A stretch of 64,000 nucleotides of DNA. Source: Egicoccus halophilus (GTDB lineage: Bacteria; Actinomycetota; Nitriliruptoria; Nitriliruptorales; Nitriliruptoraceae). How positions within the stretch are numbered: the first letter of the stretch is position 1; every line of letters starts with the position of its first letter. Shown here piece after piece: positions 57,622 to 62,868 of the stretch. The position numbers were made by a program, and so were the translations under genes. A model generated the notes under the pieces. It did no database searches, had not been told where the DNA came from, and saw only the letters and a program-made list of their open reading frames with translations. The stretch spans positions 3,049,001 through 3,113,000 of the forward strand of contig NZ_CP036250.1 of assembly GCF_004300825.1 (NCBI RefSeq), given 5' to 3'.

Positions 57622-58098
57622 ATGCGCTGTCCCGAGTGCGGCATCGACGACGACAAGGTCGTCGACTCGCGTCCGACCCCCGACGGTGCGGCGATCCGCC
57701 GCCGTCGGCAGTGCCGTGCCTGCGGCACCCGCTTCACCACCTTCGAGCGGGTGGAGCTGCCCGAACTGCTCGTCCGCAAGCGCTCCGGCGTGGTGATCCC
57801 GTTCTCCCGGCAGAAGGTGCTCGACGGCATGGCGCGCGCGGCCAAGGGGCGCGTCGCCCAGGAGGAGCTCGAGCGGGCCGCGGCACGGGTCGAGCAGCAG
57901 CTCCGCGTCGGCGGTGCCCGCGAGGTGCCCTCCGAGCAGGTCGGGGTGAAGGTGCTCGCCCAACTGCACGAACTCGACGACGTCGCCTACGTCCGCTTCG
58001 CCTCGGTCTACAAGGACTTCCAGGGTCCCGAGGACTTCGAGGAGGCGCTGCTCACCCTGCGCAAGGACGCCCCGCCCAAGGCTCCCGACCCCGCCTGA
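57622..58098 (+). CDS. nrdR: Transcriptional repressor NrdR
   Basis: A 158-aa repressor of ribonucleotide reductase genes. The N-terminal zinc ribbon has Cys3, Cys6, Cys31 and Cys34 (MRCPEC ... QCRACG) followed by TRFTTFER. The ATP-cone domain (about 48-138; VIPFSRQKVLDGMARAAKGR) senses ATP versus dATP. Matching NrdR-box-like sites lie upstream of nrdJ, 11 kb away. It is not in an operon with nrdJ here. Confidence 0.95.
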   Translation: MRCPECGIDDDKVVDSRPTPDGAAIRRRRQCRACGTRFTTFERVELPELLVRKRSGVVIPFSRQKVLDGMARAAKGRVAQEELERAAARVEQQLRVGGAREVPSEQVGVKVLAQLHELDDVAYVRFASVYKDFQGPEDFEEALLTLRKDAPPKAPDPA

Positions 58099-58130: not shown

Positions 58131-58577
58131 TCACCGTGCGGGCAGCAGCACCACGGTCCAGGCGTCGACCTCGGCGGCGGTGTCCAGGCCGTTGAGTCGG
58201 ACGACCTCGTCGAGGTGGCGGCGGGTGTCCATGCCGTCCGGCGCGGTCGCGACCGCGACGTCCCACAGCGTCTGTCCCGGCTCCACGACCACGTGACCGC
58301 CCACCTGGCTGGTCGGCTCCGCGAACGCGCCCGACGTGACCCGGCCGATCGCCGCCGTCAGCGCCAGGACCACCGTCAGCAGGATGGCGACCGCGACGGC
58401 CCGACGACGCCACAGCACCGCCGCCGACGGCCGGTCGGTGCCAGCCCGGGCCGGGACCGCGATCGGGGCCGCGGGACGCGTCCGCACCGCGGGACGGGCG
58501 GGCATCGCGGGGCGCGCCGGCCTCACGGCACGCGGACGACGGCGGACCAGGGGTGCCGGCAGGGCGCTCGAACTCAT
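58131..58577 (-). CDS. LysM-domain membrane protein, probable SOS-linked division inhibitor
   Basis: A 148-aa protein with a Pro/Arg-rich cytosolic N-terminus (1-55), one membrane helix (AVAVAILLTVVLALTAAIG, about 58-77) and an extracytoplasmic LysM-type domain (about 92-147; VEPGQTLWDVAVATAPDG ... LNGLDTAAEVDAW). The ATG has AAGGAGCC upstream. It is divergent from lexA across a cluster of four LexA boxes. The layout matches B. subtilis yneA, a LysM-containing SOS cell-division inhibitor beside lexA. The same role here is inference. Confidence 0.75.
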   Translation of the reverse strand: MSSSALPAPLVRRRPRAVRPARPAMPARPAVRTRPAAPIAVPARAGTDRPSAAVLWRRRAVAVAILLTVVLALTAAIGRVTSGAFAEPTSQVGGHVVVEPGQTLWDVAVATAPDGMDTRRHLDEVVRLNGLDTAAEVDAWTVVLLPAR

Positions 58578-58728
58578 CGGAAGGCTCCTTCGGCTGGCGG
58601 GGTGCGCAACGGCGGTCGCTGCGGCGGTGGAACGGACGCTAAGGAGGGGGTGTGACACGGCCGGTGTGTCGGCGTCGGTCACTGGGGTGCGCGCCGGCCG
58701 GCGGTTCGTGGTCCCACCTGCGTGGAAT

Positions 58729-58851
58729 CGAACATCCGTTCTGCTAGGCAGTGAACCGAACGGGCGTTCGAGAATCAAGCGTTCGTTCGAACGGGTGTTC
58801 GCTTTCGTACAGGGTGCGTGTTACGGTCACGGCCATCCGAACGCCCGTTCG
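58729..58851. promoter_or_regulatory. Four LexA (SOS) boxes between the LysM gene and lexA
   Basis: CGAACATCCGTTCT (58,729-58,742; one mismatch), CGAACGGGCGTTCG (58,757-58,770), CGAACGGGTGTTCG (58,788-58,801) and CGAACGCCCGTTCG (58,838-58,851). The last three fit the Gram-positive consensus CGAAC-N4-GTTCG exactly. They lie in the 446-bp divergent gap, so LexA can control both genes. Confidence 0.9.
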
Positions 58852-59023
58852 GCACGGCCGTTGGAACGGCGTGAAGGACAGTCTTGCCGCCGGTGGGACG
58901 GCGGCGACCGTCCGACGAGCTCCCCCGGACGTCGCGTGAGCCGCCCGACCCCGCCCACCCGACGTGACTCGACCCGACCCGACTCGACCCGACCCGATCC
59001 TCCGCACTGCGCCAGGAGCCCTC

Positions 59024-59677
59024 GTGAGCGAGCAGCCCCGCGACGTCAGCGACCTCACGCCCCGCCAGCGGGCGATCCTGGAGGTCATCCACGCCCACGT
59101 CGACGCGCACGGTTATCCGCCGTCGGTGCGGGAGATCGGTGACGCGGTCGGCCTCAAGTCGACGTCCTCGGTGCACGCGCAGCTCGAGACCCTCGAGGGC
59201 AAGGGCTACCTGCGCCGCGATCCGACCAAGCCACGCGCGCTGGAGCTGGGCCGTGACCTGGAGCTCGGGCTGCAACTGCGCCCCGGCGCGTCACGCAACG
59301 TCCCGCTGGTGGGCGAGATCGCGGCCGGTGGCCCGATCCTGGCCGAGGAACGGGTCGACGCGGTGTACGCGCTGCCCAAGGAGCTGGTCGGCGAGGGGCA
59401 GCTGTTCCTGCTGCGGGTCCGTGGTGAGTCGATGATCGAGGCCGGCGTCCTCGACGGCGACCTGGTGGTGGTGCGCGAGCAGGCCTCGGTGGAGCAGGGC
59501 GAGATGTGCGCCGTGCTGATCGAGGGCGAGGCGACGGTCAAGTTCTTCCGGCGCACCCGGACCGGGGACGTCTTCCTCGACCCGGCCAACGCGGCCTACG
59601 AGCCGATCCCGATCGTGCCCGGTCAGGACGCCCGCATCATGGGCAAGGTCGTGACCGTGATGCGCTCGGTGCGCTGA
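59024..59677 (+). CDS. lexA: SOS-response repressor LexA
   Basis: A 217-aa repressor. The N-terminal winged helix ([20 protein letters not shown] ... [20 protein letters not shown]) binds CGAAC-type boxes. The C-terminal latent protease has the Ala101-Gly102 cleavage site (EIAAGGPI), nucleophile Ser136 (GESM) and Lys173 (ATVKFF). The GTG with CAGGAG before it is chosen over an upstream frame made of Asp-Pro-Thr-Arg repeats, which comes from a tandem CGACCCGACT leader. Four boxes lie upstream, giving strong autoregulation. Confidence 0.96.
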
Positions 59678-59680
59678 GGC

Positions 59681-61282
59681 TCAGCGGCCCCCGGGGGCAC
59701 CGTTGGCGGCCAGCTCGACCAGGGCGAGCAGCAGGCCCTCGTGCGGCGCGAGCGGCTGGGTGACCGCGTCCCCCATGATCTCGACCAGCCACCCGACCCC
59801 GTTGCGGGTGGTCCCGGCCGCGAGCATCGACACGTAGCCGTTGGCGGCCAGGAACGCCCGTTCGGTGGAGTGGCCGTCCTCGAGGGTGGCGAAGAACACC
59901 CCGCCGCGCAGCACCGCCGCGGACGCGGGATAGTCCGCCAGCGGATAGCGGTCCCCGGCGGCGACCGGCATGGTGCCCGTGCCGAGGTCCCCCTGACGCA
60001 GGTACTCGCCACGGCGGATCACCAGGTCGCGCCCGTCACTGTCCGACAGCCACCACGACGCCGCCCCGAGCCCCTGCGCCACGCTGGCGGCCAACGCCGC
60101 GAGCCGCTCCTCGGTGTCGCCGTCGGCGGCCTGGACGGCGGTCAGGACCCGGCCTGCCAGCTCCCGTCCGGCAGCCCGGTCGGCGGCGCCGATCTGGTGA
60201 CGCGCCAGCGTGCCCAGCCCGTCGGCGACCCGGCCGTTGCGGGTCGCGCGGGACTGGCGCTTGGAGCGGTACTGCATCGCATCGGCCAGCCGCAGCAGCG
60301 CCCGCCCCGCGGCCGCCGGCGACGGTGCCCCACCGGGCCGTTGCTCCGCGACGGCGAACCCGCAGGACAGGCCGTCACCGACCGCCAGCGCCTCGACCTC
60401 GGCGGTCAGACGCTTGGTGACCTCCTGCATCTGCTCGTCGTCGACGCCCTCGAGCACGACGGAGAACTCGTCGCCGCCGATGCGGGCCGCCAGGCCACCA
60501 GGGTGGCGCGCCACCTCGGCGGTGAGCACGCGCGCCACCTCGCGCAGCAGCCGGTCGCCCTCGGCGTGGCCCTGTTCGTCGTTGACCTCCTTGAGGCCGT
60601 TGACGTCGCCGACCAGCAGCCCGACGGGTGCGGCCAGCGGGTCGCGGGCGAACACGCGCTCGAGCCGGTCGTCGACCGCGCGCCGGTTGCCCAGGCCCGT
60701 GAGTCGGTCGCGGTAGGCGAGCTCGTGCAGCACGGCGCGGTCCTGCAGGTGGCGCAGCGCCGCCCCGACCAGTCCCATGAGGGTCTGCGCCACCATCAGG
60801 TCGAGCTCCTCGAACGGCGGTCGGCCCGCCCGCCGGGTCACGTACAGCTCGCCCCACACCTGCCCGCCGACGAACACCGGCGAGGACAGCGCCGCGTACT
60901 TGTCCAGCGACACCAGCAGGTCCCGGTCGGGGCCGGGCAGGTCGGGGTCGTCGAGCGTCCCCGTCCAGGACCGGCCCTGCAGCAGCACCGTCACGAGGTT
61001 GCGCCACCCGTCGATGCGATACGTCTCGTGCAGCGGACGCGGTTCCTCCCACGGCGCCAGGTCACCGTGGTTGCGCAGCACCCGGGTGATGCCCTCGGCG
61101 CGGTCGAAGCGCGACAGTGAGGCCGCGTCGGCGCCGAGGCAGCGCACCGCGACCTCGACGGCCAGGTCGTAGACCTCGCCCTCGTGCTCGCTGCGCCCCA
61201 GCCGACGGCCGGCGAGCGCGAGCGAACGCAGCCGGGCGGCGAGATCGGCGCTGCCCCGCAGTGAGGTCGACTCCTCGGTCAG
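59681..61282 (-). CDS. GAF-GGDEF-GAF diguanylate cyclase
   Basis: A 533-aa protein. An N-terminal GAF domain (about 20-160) is followed by a coiled link and a GGDEF domain (about 180-330) with an intact GGDEF at 269-273 (RIGGDEFSV), so c-di-GMP synthesis is likely. A second GAF-like domain (about 375-525) follows. No RxxD inhibitory site lies before the GGDEF motif. No ATG, GTG or TTG precedes the first GAF in frame. The only fitting start is CTG at 61,282, with GGGAG at ribosome-site distance and a CTGA overlap with the hflX stop. Confidence 0.78.
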   Translation of the reverse strand: MTEESTSLRGSADLAARLRSLALAGRRLGRSEHEGEVYDLAVEVAVRCLGADAASLSRFDRAEGITRVLRNHGDLAPWEEPRPLHETYRIDGWRNLVTVLLQGRSWTGTLDDPDLPGPDRDLLVSLDKYAALSSPVFVGGQVWGELYVTRRAGRPPFEELDLMVAQTLMGLVGAALRHLQDRAVLHELAYRDRLTGLGNRRAVDDRLERVFARDPLAAPVGLLVGDVNGLKEVNDEQGHAEGDRLLREVARVLTAEVARHPGGLAARIGGDEFSVVLEGVDDEQMQEVTKRLTAEVEALAVGDGLSCGFAVAEQRPGGAPSPAAAGRALLRLADAMQYRSKRQSRATRNGRVADGLGTLARHQIGAADRAAGRELAGRVLTAVQAADGDTEERLAALAASVAQGLGAASWWLSDSDGRDLVIRRGEYLRQGDLGTGTMPVAAGDRYPLADYPASAAVLRGGVFFATLEDGHSTERAFLAANGYVSMLAAGTTRNGVGWLVEIMGDAVTQPLAPHEGLLLALVELAANGAPGGR

Positions 61283-62868
61283 GTCCCCGTCTCCCGTTCC
61301 CAGTCCTCGGGCTCCTCGGCGAACACGTCGACGTCGAGGTACGGGCGCAGTCGGCGCGCCGCACGGACGTCGAGATCGGCCACGAGCTCGGTCCCCTTGT
61401 CCCCGTGCGCCTCCTTGACCACCTGCCCACTGCGGTGTGCCAAGGCGACGAGATCCTGCCGTGCGTAGGGTACATGCGCGCTGATGCGGATCCGCTGTCC
61501 CGGGATCCGGAGTCCGATGCGCTCGACGAGGTCCTCGATGCCCTCGCCGGTGTGCGCCGACACGAGCACCGGGTCGGCGTCGAGTTCCACCTGCACCCGA
61601 CGGGCGAGCGCCTCCACGGTGGCCGGGTCGGCCCGGTCGATCTTGTTGAGCACCAACTGCTCGGCGCCGGCGTCGGCGCCGATCTCCTCGAGCACCTCGT
61701 GCACGGCGACGATGTGCGACTCCGCCTCCGGGTGCGAGGCGTCGACGACGTGCACGAGCAGGTCGGCGGTCAACGACTCCTCGAGGGTCGACTTGAACGC
61801 CTCGACCAGCCCGTGCGGCAGCTTGCGGACGAACCCCACCGTGTCGGTGAGCACGATGTCGCGGCCGTCGTCGAGCGGCAGACGCCGCACGGTCGGGTCC
61901 AGCGTCGCGAACAGGCGGTTCTCGACCAGCACGTCGGCGCCGGTGAGGCGGTTGAGCAGCGACGACTTGCCGGCGTTGGTGTAGCCGACCAGCGCCGCGA
62001 CCTGCACCCGGTTGCGTTCGCGCTCGGACGCCTTGGTCTCGCGGATGCGGGCGTAGTCCTTCAGGTCGCGACGCAGCTTGGCGATGCGTCGCATGATGCG
62101 GCGACGGTCGACCTCGAGCTGGGTCTCGCCCGGTCCACGACCACCGATGCCGGCACCACCGGCGGTGCGGCCACCGGCCTGCCGCGACAGTGCGGTCCCC
62201 CACCCACGCAGGCGGGGCAGCAGGTAGTTGAGCTGGGCGAGCTCCACCTGCGCCTTGCCCTCGCGCGAGGTGGCGTGCTGGGCGAAGATGTCGAGGATGA
62301 CGATGGTGCGGTCGAGCACCTTCTGCTTGACCCGCTCCTCCAGCGTGCGCTGCTGCGCCGGCGAGAGCTCGTCGTCGAACACGACGGCGTCGGCGCCGTG
62401 GGCGGCCACCAGCTCGCGCAGCTCACCGACCTTGCCGCCACCGATGTAGGTCGCGGCCTGCGGGGTGTCCAGCCGCTGCACGACGCGCTCGACCACCTCG
62501 GCACCGGCGGTGTCGAGCAGCGCCTCGAGCTCGTCCAGCGACGCCTCGACGTCCGCCGAGGTGCGTCCGGGCAGCTGCACGCCGACGATCACGGCCGCCT
62601 CGACCCGCCGGATGATGTCGACGCCCTCGCGCGGGGCGCCCTCCTCGATGACGTCGCGGCGGCGGCGACGTTCCTCGGCACGCGAGAGCTGCTCGGCGCT
62701 CAGGCCCGAGCCGTCGCCGAGCAGCAGGTCGTCGGCGGCGGGCTCGTCGTCGAGCGCGTAGCCGTCCACGACGTCGTCGAGGGGCGCGTCGTCGAGCGGT
62801 GCGTCGTCGCCCGGGTCGGACGCGGACGGTCCGCGAGGTTCGGGGGAACGGGGGTCGTCGGAACTCAG
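61279..62868 (-). CDS. hflX: GTPase HflX
   Basis: A 529-aa ribosome-associated GTPase that splits stalled or hibernating ribosomes. The N-terminal HflX domain (about 80-270) has TYIGGGKVGELREL and VVFDDELSPAQQRTLE. The linker GGRGPGETQLEVDRRR precedes the G domain with GYTNAGKSSL (295-304), DTVGF, and NKID. The start is probably CTG at 62,868, which overlaps the dapF stop (CTGA) with GGAG nine bases upstream. The first ordinary start is GTG at 62,769, without a ribosome site. The acidic N-terminal 50 residues are not conserved. Confidence 0.88.
   Translation of the reverse strand: MSSDDPRSPEPRGPSASDPGDDAPLDDAPLDDVVDGYALDDEPAADDLLLGDGSGLSAEQLSRAEERRRRRDVIEEGAPREGVDIIRRVEAAVIVGVQLPGRTSADVEASLDELEALLDTAGAEVVERVVQRLDTPQAATYIGGGKVGELRELVAAHGADAVVFDDELSPAQQRTLEERVKQKVLDRTIVILDIFAQHATSREGKAQVELAQLNYLLPRLRGWGTALSRQAGGRTAGGAGIGGRGPGETQLEVDRRRIMRRIAKLRRDLKDYARIRETKASERERNRVQVAALVGYTNAGKSSLLNRLTGADVLVENRLFATLDPTVRRLPLDDGRDIVLTDTVGFVRKLPHGLVEAFKSTLEESLTADLLVHVVDASHPEAESHIVAVHEVLEEIGADAGAEQLVLNKIDRADPATVEALARRVQVELDADPVLVSAHTGEGIEDLVERIGLRIPGQRIRISAHVPYARQDLVALAHRSGQVVKEAHGDKGTELVADLDVRAARRLRPYLDVDVFAEEPEDWERETGT

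Follow-up and report, generated by a model that had tools for sequence, protein, structure and literature searches.

What is controlled by the cluster of LexA boxes in the gap that separates lexA from a divergently transcribed LysM membrane-protein gene in Egicoccus halophilus, and does this arrangement act as a damage-responsive brake on cell division? We addressed this within the window, that is, the whole 64,000-nucleotide stretch of DNA that was analysed. In our view the locus is the lexA-chiZ divergent control region of actinobacteria (probability roughly 0.85), with LexA acting on both promoters, PafBC as a second input to the LysM gene and a division delay as the probable outcome. LexA binding, damage induction and division arrest are what we infer for a region that is a standard, well-preserved example of the known system as found in M. 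tuberculosis and not a new one. The genes concerned are as follows.

57622 to 58098, plus strand: nrdR, ribonucleotide reductase repressor (TIGR00244, 7e-46), convergent with the LysM gene
58131 to 58577, minus strand: LysM membrane protein, ChiZ/YneA-like, consisting of a tail of about 59 aa rich in Arg and Pro, a single membrane helix, a linker and a LysM domain
59024 to 59677, plus strand: lexA, SOS repressor (TIGR00498, 6.3e-64), with a GTG start behind AGGAG

The lexA product contains both a DNA-binding domain (LexA_DNA_bind, PF01726, 1.2e-27) and an S24 self-cleaving domain (Peptidase_S24, PF00717, 2.7e-30), each of these matches, like that to TIGR00498, being over cut-off. Its closest named relatives come from Nitriliruptoraceae bacteria, while those from Egibacteraceae and Salsipaludibacter are more distant, which agrees with an origin of the window in the actinobacterial class Nitriliruptoria. 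Between lexA and the divergent LysM gene is a gap of 446 bp in which four boxes are found.

58729 to 58742, no strand assigned: LexA box 1, CGAACATCCGTTCT, with 1 mismatch, located where transcription from the LexA-controlled LysM promoter is predicted to start
58757 to 58770, no strand assigned: LexA box 2, perfect, within the spacer of the LysM promoter
58788 to 58801, no strand assigned: LexA box 3, perfect, lying over the predicted -35 of lexA
58838 to 58851, no strand assigned: LexA box 4, perfect, just 3' of the predicted lexA start site

An earlier, sequence-only reading of this DNA had reported three perfect boxes and one near-perfect box with start-to-start distances of 28, 31 and 50 bp, and both the positions and the spacings were reproduced, all four boxes falling within 123 bp. 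Their number is far above chance, since in 2000 dinucleotide shuffles of this gap perfect boxes averaged 0.0045 (maximum 1) and boxes carrying no more than one mismatch averaged 0.06 (maximum 2). The same reading had described the first three boxes as roughly helically phased. This was true of boxes 2 and 3, separated by 31 bp or 2.95 turns, but not of boxes 1 and 2 (28 bp, 2.67 turns), and with boxes 3 and 4 at 50 bp or 4.76 turns the central pair is the only one in phase.

The wider use of the motif was mapped by pattern searches of the genome, which is a single contig of 3.98 Mb. These returned 22 perfect boxes genome-wide and 0 matches to the reversed pattern. In addition to the boxes at lexA itself, perfect sites are present upstream of recA and at the starts of ruvC and a gene for a DEDD exonuclease/UvrC-like protein, and because of these locations the motif is very probably the working LexA operator of E. 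halophilus. Four of the 22 perfect boxes were set aside as probably not being operators, since they share one self-palindromic sequence that happens to fit the pattern and at least two of them lie inside open frames.

353741, 2032273, 2260747 and 2626054 of the genome contig: self-palindrome CGAACTCGAGTTCG, which fits the LexA pattern

The DEDD exonuclease with its UvrC-like part (L015:1530-3011) has a perfect LexA box just 5' of its start and is likely to be an SOS gene of E. halophilus.

We aligned 33 relatives and derived promoter elements from the alignment, the start sites being predictions. A scan with the sigma-70 consensus detected no promoter.

58750 to 58778, minus strand: predicted LexA-controlled LysM promoter, with -35 TTGATT (58778-58773), a 17-bp spacer filled by box 2 and -10 TTCACT (58755-58750)
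58819 to 58827, plus strand: predicted extended -10 of lexA, TGTTACGGT, between boxes 3 and 4

On the LysM side the order across the relatives is a -35 of TTGAC (TTGATT in E. halophilus), box 2, a TTCACT-like -10 and box 1, and TTGA[ACT] stands immediately before a box in 49/59 LysM promoters of the class; the -10 TTCACT itself is a weak fit to the consensus. On the lexA side 27 of the 33 family loci keep the extended -10 between their last two boxes. The conservation of these elements beside the boxes therefore suggests that each of the divergent promoters has one core box and one start-site box.

This anatomy bears on the claim, also made in the sequence-only reading, that four operators are more than usual and imply tight, cooperative control. 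Four boxes are in fact ordinary, because exactly four occur upstream of lexA in 28/33 loci of the family of E. halophilus and the nearest order (counted within 420 bp upstream of lexA) and because M. tuberculosis also has four, located between lexA and Rv2719c (ChiZ) (PMC8151990). Over the same 420 bp, three is the commonest count among the remaining loci of the class, and 15 of 18 loci from other Actinomycetota have three or four. A single cooperative LexA array with unusually tight control would be in keeping with four good boxes in 123 bp and with the 31 bp (2.95 turns) between boxes 2 and 3, a distance of 30-31 bp being common in the family. We nevertheless consider such an array improbable, as the other two spacings vary among relatives (23-31 bp for boxes 1-2 and 41-50 bp for boxes 3-4 in most) and are off phase here (2.67 and 4.76 turns), four is the usual number, and every box can be assigned to one or other of the two divergent promoters. 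Moreover, the reported control of M. tuberculosis lexA relies on one box only and is independent of the remaining three, in contrast with the two that the conserved anatomy suggests for lexA of E. halophilus.

Two boxes for each divergent promoter is the arrangement that we prefer. The alignment also contains a further conserved block, located after box 1 and ahead of the LysM start codon.

58636 to 58657, minus strand: candidate PafBC (RecA-independent) promoter motif TGTCAC-N10-TAGCGT, directed at the LysM gene, with a predicted leader of about 50 nt

On the coding strand the block reads TGTCACACCCCCTCCTTAGCGT (58657-58636) and fits the PafBC motif variant TGTCAC-N10-TA-N3-T published for M. 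tuberculosis (PMC8151990). It is the only site in the window of the form TGTC[A/G]-N11-TAnnnT and it lies in the sense direction. The strict mycobacterial form TTGTCNGT-N9-TAnnnT had no match in the genome, whereas the TGTCAC form does match. Across the class the motif was present in sense orientation at 19 of 59 LysM upstream regions and in antisense orientation at 0, with shuffles giving an expectation of 0.07; in the other 40/59 loci the exact motif is absent. When the spacer was varied from 7 to 16, 19 loci fell at N11 and 0 or 1 at each other length, so that there is essentially a single spacing. As an independent check, the same spacing was found at recA, downstream of a LexA box, in 19 of 27 usable class upstream regions, using a scan that accepted any base except T after TGTC and a count that leaves out three recA loci, L171 because it was too short and L198 and L199 because an intein-split match had put them in the wrong place. 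The genome also has pafA, pafB and pafC as consecutive genes (TIGR03686, 1.9e-211; a WYL+WCX protein; HTH_PafC, 1.9e-31). We looked at whether loss of PafC goes together with loss of the motif and did not retain this link, for although the direction fits, with the motif in 0/7 genomes without PafC and 19/52 others, the difference is not significant (p = 0.055).

Together the motif counts indicate a PafBC-type promoter as a second damage input to the LysM gene. The SOS division checkpoint proposed in the sequence-only reading is still the best interpretation of the locus, given its synteny, domain order and promoter anatomy, but it was incomplete in overlooking this promoter. In M. tuberculosis the PafBC motif close to lexA acts on the rv2719c operon, lexA itself not being its target (PMC8151990), and the direction toward the LysM gene is the same in E. 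halophilus. The recA gene of mycobacteria has both an SOS box and a PafBC motif upstream and is under dual control, and the motif has already been reported to extend to other Actinobacteria (PMC8223512), so that the present finding extends known biology. The same pair of elements is seen at the recA genes of the class, where the case is made from sequence. What this adds is a clear PafBC promoter code outside mycobacteria, with one fixed spacing at recA and at the checkpoint gene, which helps to test for a RecA-independent damage response where this is unproven.

The product of the LysM gene was considered next to its characterised relatives. Its best start is the ATG at 58577, which gives a protein of 148 aa; the TTG start of the longest open frame was rejected in favour of this ATG, which has the ribosome-binding site AAGGAG just upstream. 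The 59 residues ahead of the membrane helix contain 14 R+K, 1 D+E and 11 P, comparable with residues 1-64 of ChiZ, which have 13 Arg, a net charge of +10 and 12 Pro (PMC7355643), and like the cytoplasmic tail of ChiZ this segment is predicted to be disordered, AlphaFold assigning no secondary structure to residues 1-51. The helix that follows has a hydropathy of 2.63 (AF2 helix 52-82) and is succeeded by a LysM-like strand-helix-helix-strand unit, with mean pLDDT over 10-residue blocks of 93-97 for residues 51-70 in the membrane helix and 90-97 for residues 91-148 in the LysM unit. Foldseek returned mostly LysM domains as top structural matches, although all with E of 0.02 or above, and Pfam LysM gave no match for the single protein of this genome. 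The NCBIfam YneA equivalog model scored the single protein at 20.5 bits against a curated cut-off of 60, so that it is YneA-like and is not filed as YneA. Among the homologues, 47/57 match the NCBIfam YneA model and 25/57 match Pfam LysM, while a family profile matched solved LysM domains at 1.3e-18. On the strength of the orthologue family and the predicted fold, the LysM domain can be regarded as secure, and the earlier description of one membrane helix plus a LysM domain was borne out by hydropathy, the AlphaFold helix, the orthologue matches and the family profile. The order of one membrane helix and then a LysM domain, the latter presumably outside, is that of the ChiZ/YneA type, as is the position of the gene adjoining lexA with LexA boxes in its promoter, through which it would be controlled. 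A divergent LysM homologue adjoins lexA in 59 of 62 class loci and in 80 of 90 actinobacterial loci examined.

YneA of B. subtilis and DivS of corynebacteria had been offered as the reference systems for this locus; the closest characterised relative is instead M. tuberculosis Rv2719c/ChiZ, which has the same neighbours. There lexA (Rv2720) is likewise divergent from a one-helix LysM protein with nrdR adjoining, and four SOS boxes and a PafBC motif TGTCAC-N10-TA-N3-T toward the LysM gene are likewise present (PMC8151990). B. subtilis YneA is also an SOS-induced membrane protein with one helix and an extracellular LysM domain, and its model matches most of the homologues (47/57), but it is described without a long Arg-rich cytoplasmic tail and the Egicoccus protein is under the YneA cut-off. 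We know of no PafBC system in B. subtilis. C. glutamicum DivS is similarly an SOS-induced division suppressor near lexA, but is described as lacking significant homology to YneA (PMC3989709) and, according to the sequence-only reading, has no LysM domain. For YneA the helix is reported to bind FtsW and the LysM domain, which is essential, to bind new wall and so block septal synthesis (PMC13396833). ChiZ is reported to interact with FtsI and FtsQ and not to require its LysM domain (PMC3989709).

By analogy with these proteins the LysM protein probably halts cell division. That it is a wall hydrolase or wall-remodelling enzyme and not a division inhibitor would agree with the first description of ChiZ as a cell-wall hydrolase (PMC3989709), but the zymogram for that activity was probably a false positive according to a later paper (PMC7355643) and Pfam finds LysM and no catalytic domain in the homologues, which makes an enzymatic role very unlikely. 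Divergent genes can share operators, and the LysM gene could on that basis be a bystander of lexA with no damage-specific role, but we give this hardly any credence, as the gene has a promoter of its own with a box in the spacer, kept in 49/59 loci, and a directional PafBC motif of its own.

For the lexA-chiZ type of control region the following sequence of events can be proposed. LexA bound at boxes 3 and 4 would repress lexA; repression of the LysM gene would come from box 2, between the -35 and -10, together with box 1 at the start site. Upon DNA damage RecA would trigger the self-cleavage of LexA and both promoters would open. Activated PafBC would start transcription of the LysM gene at the gene-proximal promoter, which is predicted to sit beyond the LexA boxes, without the need for RecA or LexA cleavage. 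The protein would be held in the membrane by its one helix, with the Arg/Pro-rich tail in the cytoplasm and the LysM domain facing the cell wall, and its most likely effect at the division site would be a delay in septal wall synthesis, as reported for YneA and ChiZ.

The one real difference from M. tuberculosis that could be pinpointed is the orientation of nrdR. In M. tuberculosis Rv2719c-nrdR-Rv2717c form one LexA-controlled operon (PMC4181829), whereas nrdR of E. halophilus has the opposite orientation and is convergent with the LysM gene. Every class locus in which nrdR was located, 49 in all, shows this inversion, while in the 15 loci from other actinobacteria that have nrdR on this side the gene is co-directional and follows the LysM gene. 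As a consequence of the inversion, control of nucleotide supply is probably not induced alongside the checkpoint gene in this class. A literature search on SOS in Nitriliruptor found nothing relevant. The M. tuberculosis lexA-ChiZ wiring of SOS boxes, LysM membrane protein and PafBC promoter is now seen in an actinobacterial class that is deep and has received little study, which suggests an ancient and strongly conserved architecture. We would put at even odds the broader proposal that a two-input checkpoint, combining LexA repression and PafBC activation, is ancestral to Actinomycetota and that the nrdR inversion in Nitriliruptoria severed the link between checkpoint and nucleotide supply.

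Several minor features of the region and its relatives were also recorded. The distance from box 4 to the lexA start is 186 bp in E. halophilus vs 41-80 bp in three relatives of the same genus. The lexA leader contains a short tandem repeat at 58957-58997 (2.7 copies of the 15-bp unit ACCCGACCCGACTCG), and the open frame that follows lexA on the minus strand (59681-62203) contains RIGGDEFSVVLEG, as in diguanylate cyclases. RecA is uninterrupted in the E. halophilus genome. In many other genomes of the class, among them G036:C217, G014:C3, G001:C67 and G006:C396, the RecA matches are split within open frames of ~700-1675 aa, near residues 70, 201 and 250, a pattern suggesting that RecA carries one to three inteins in many members of the class.
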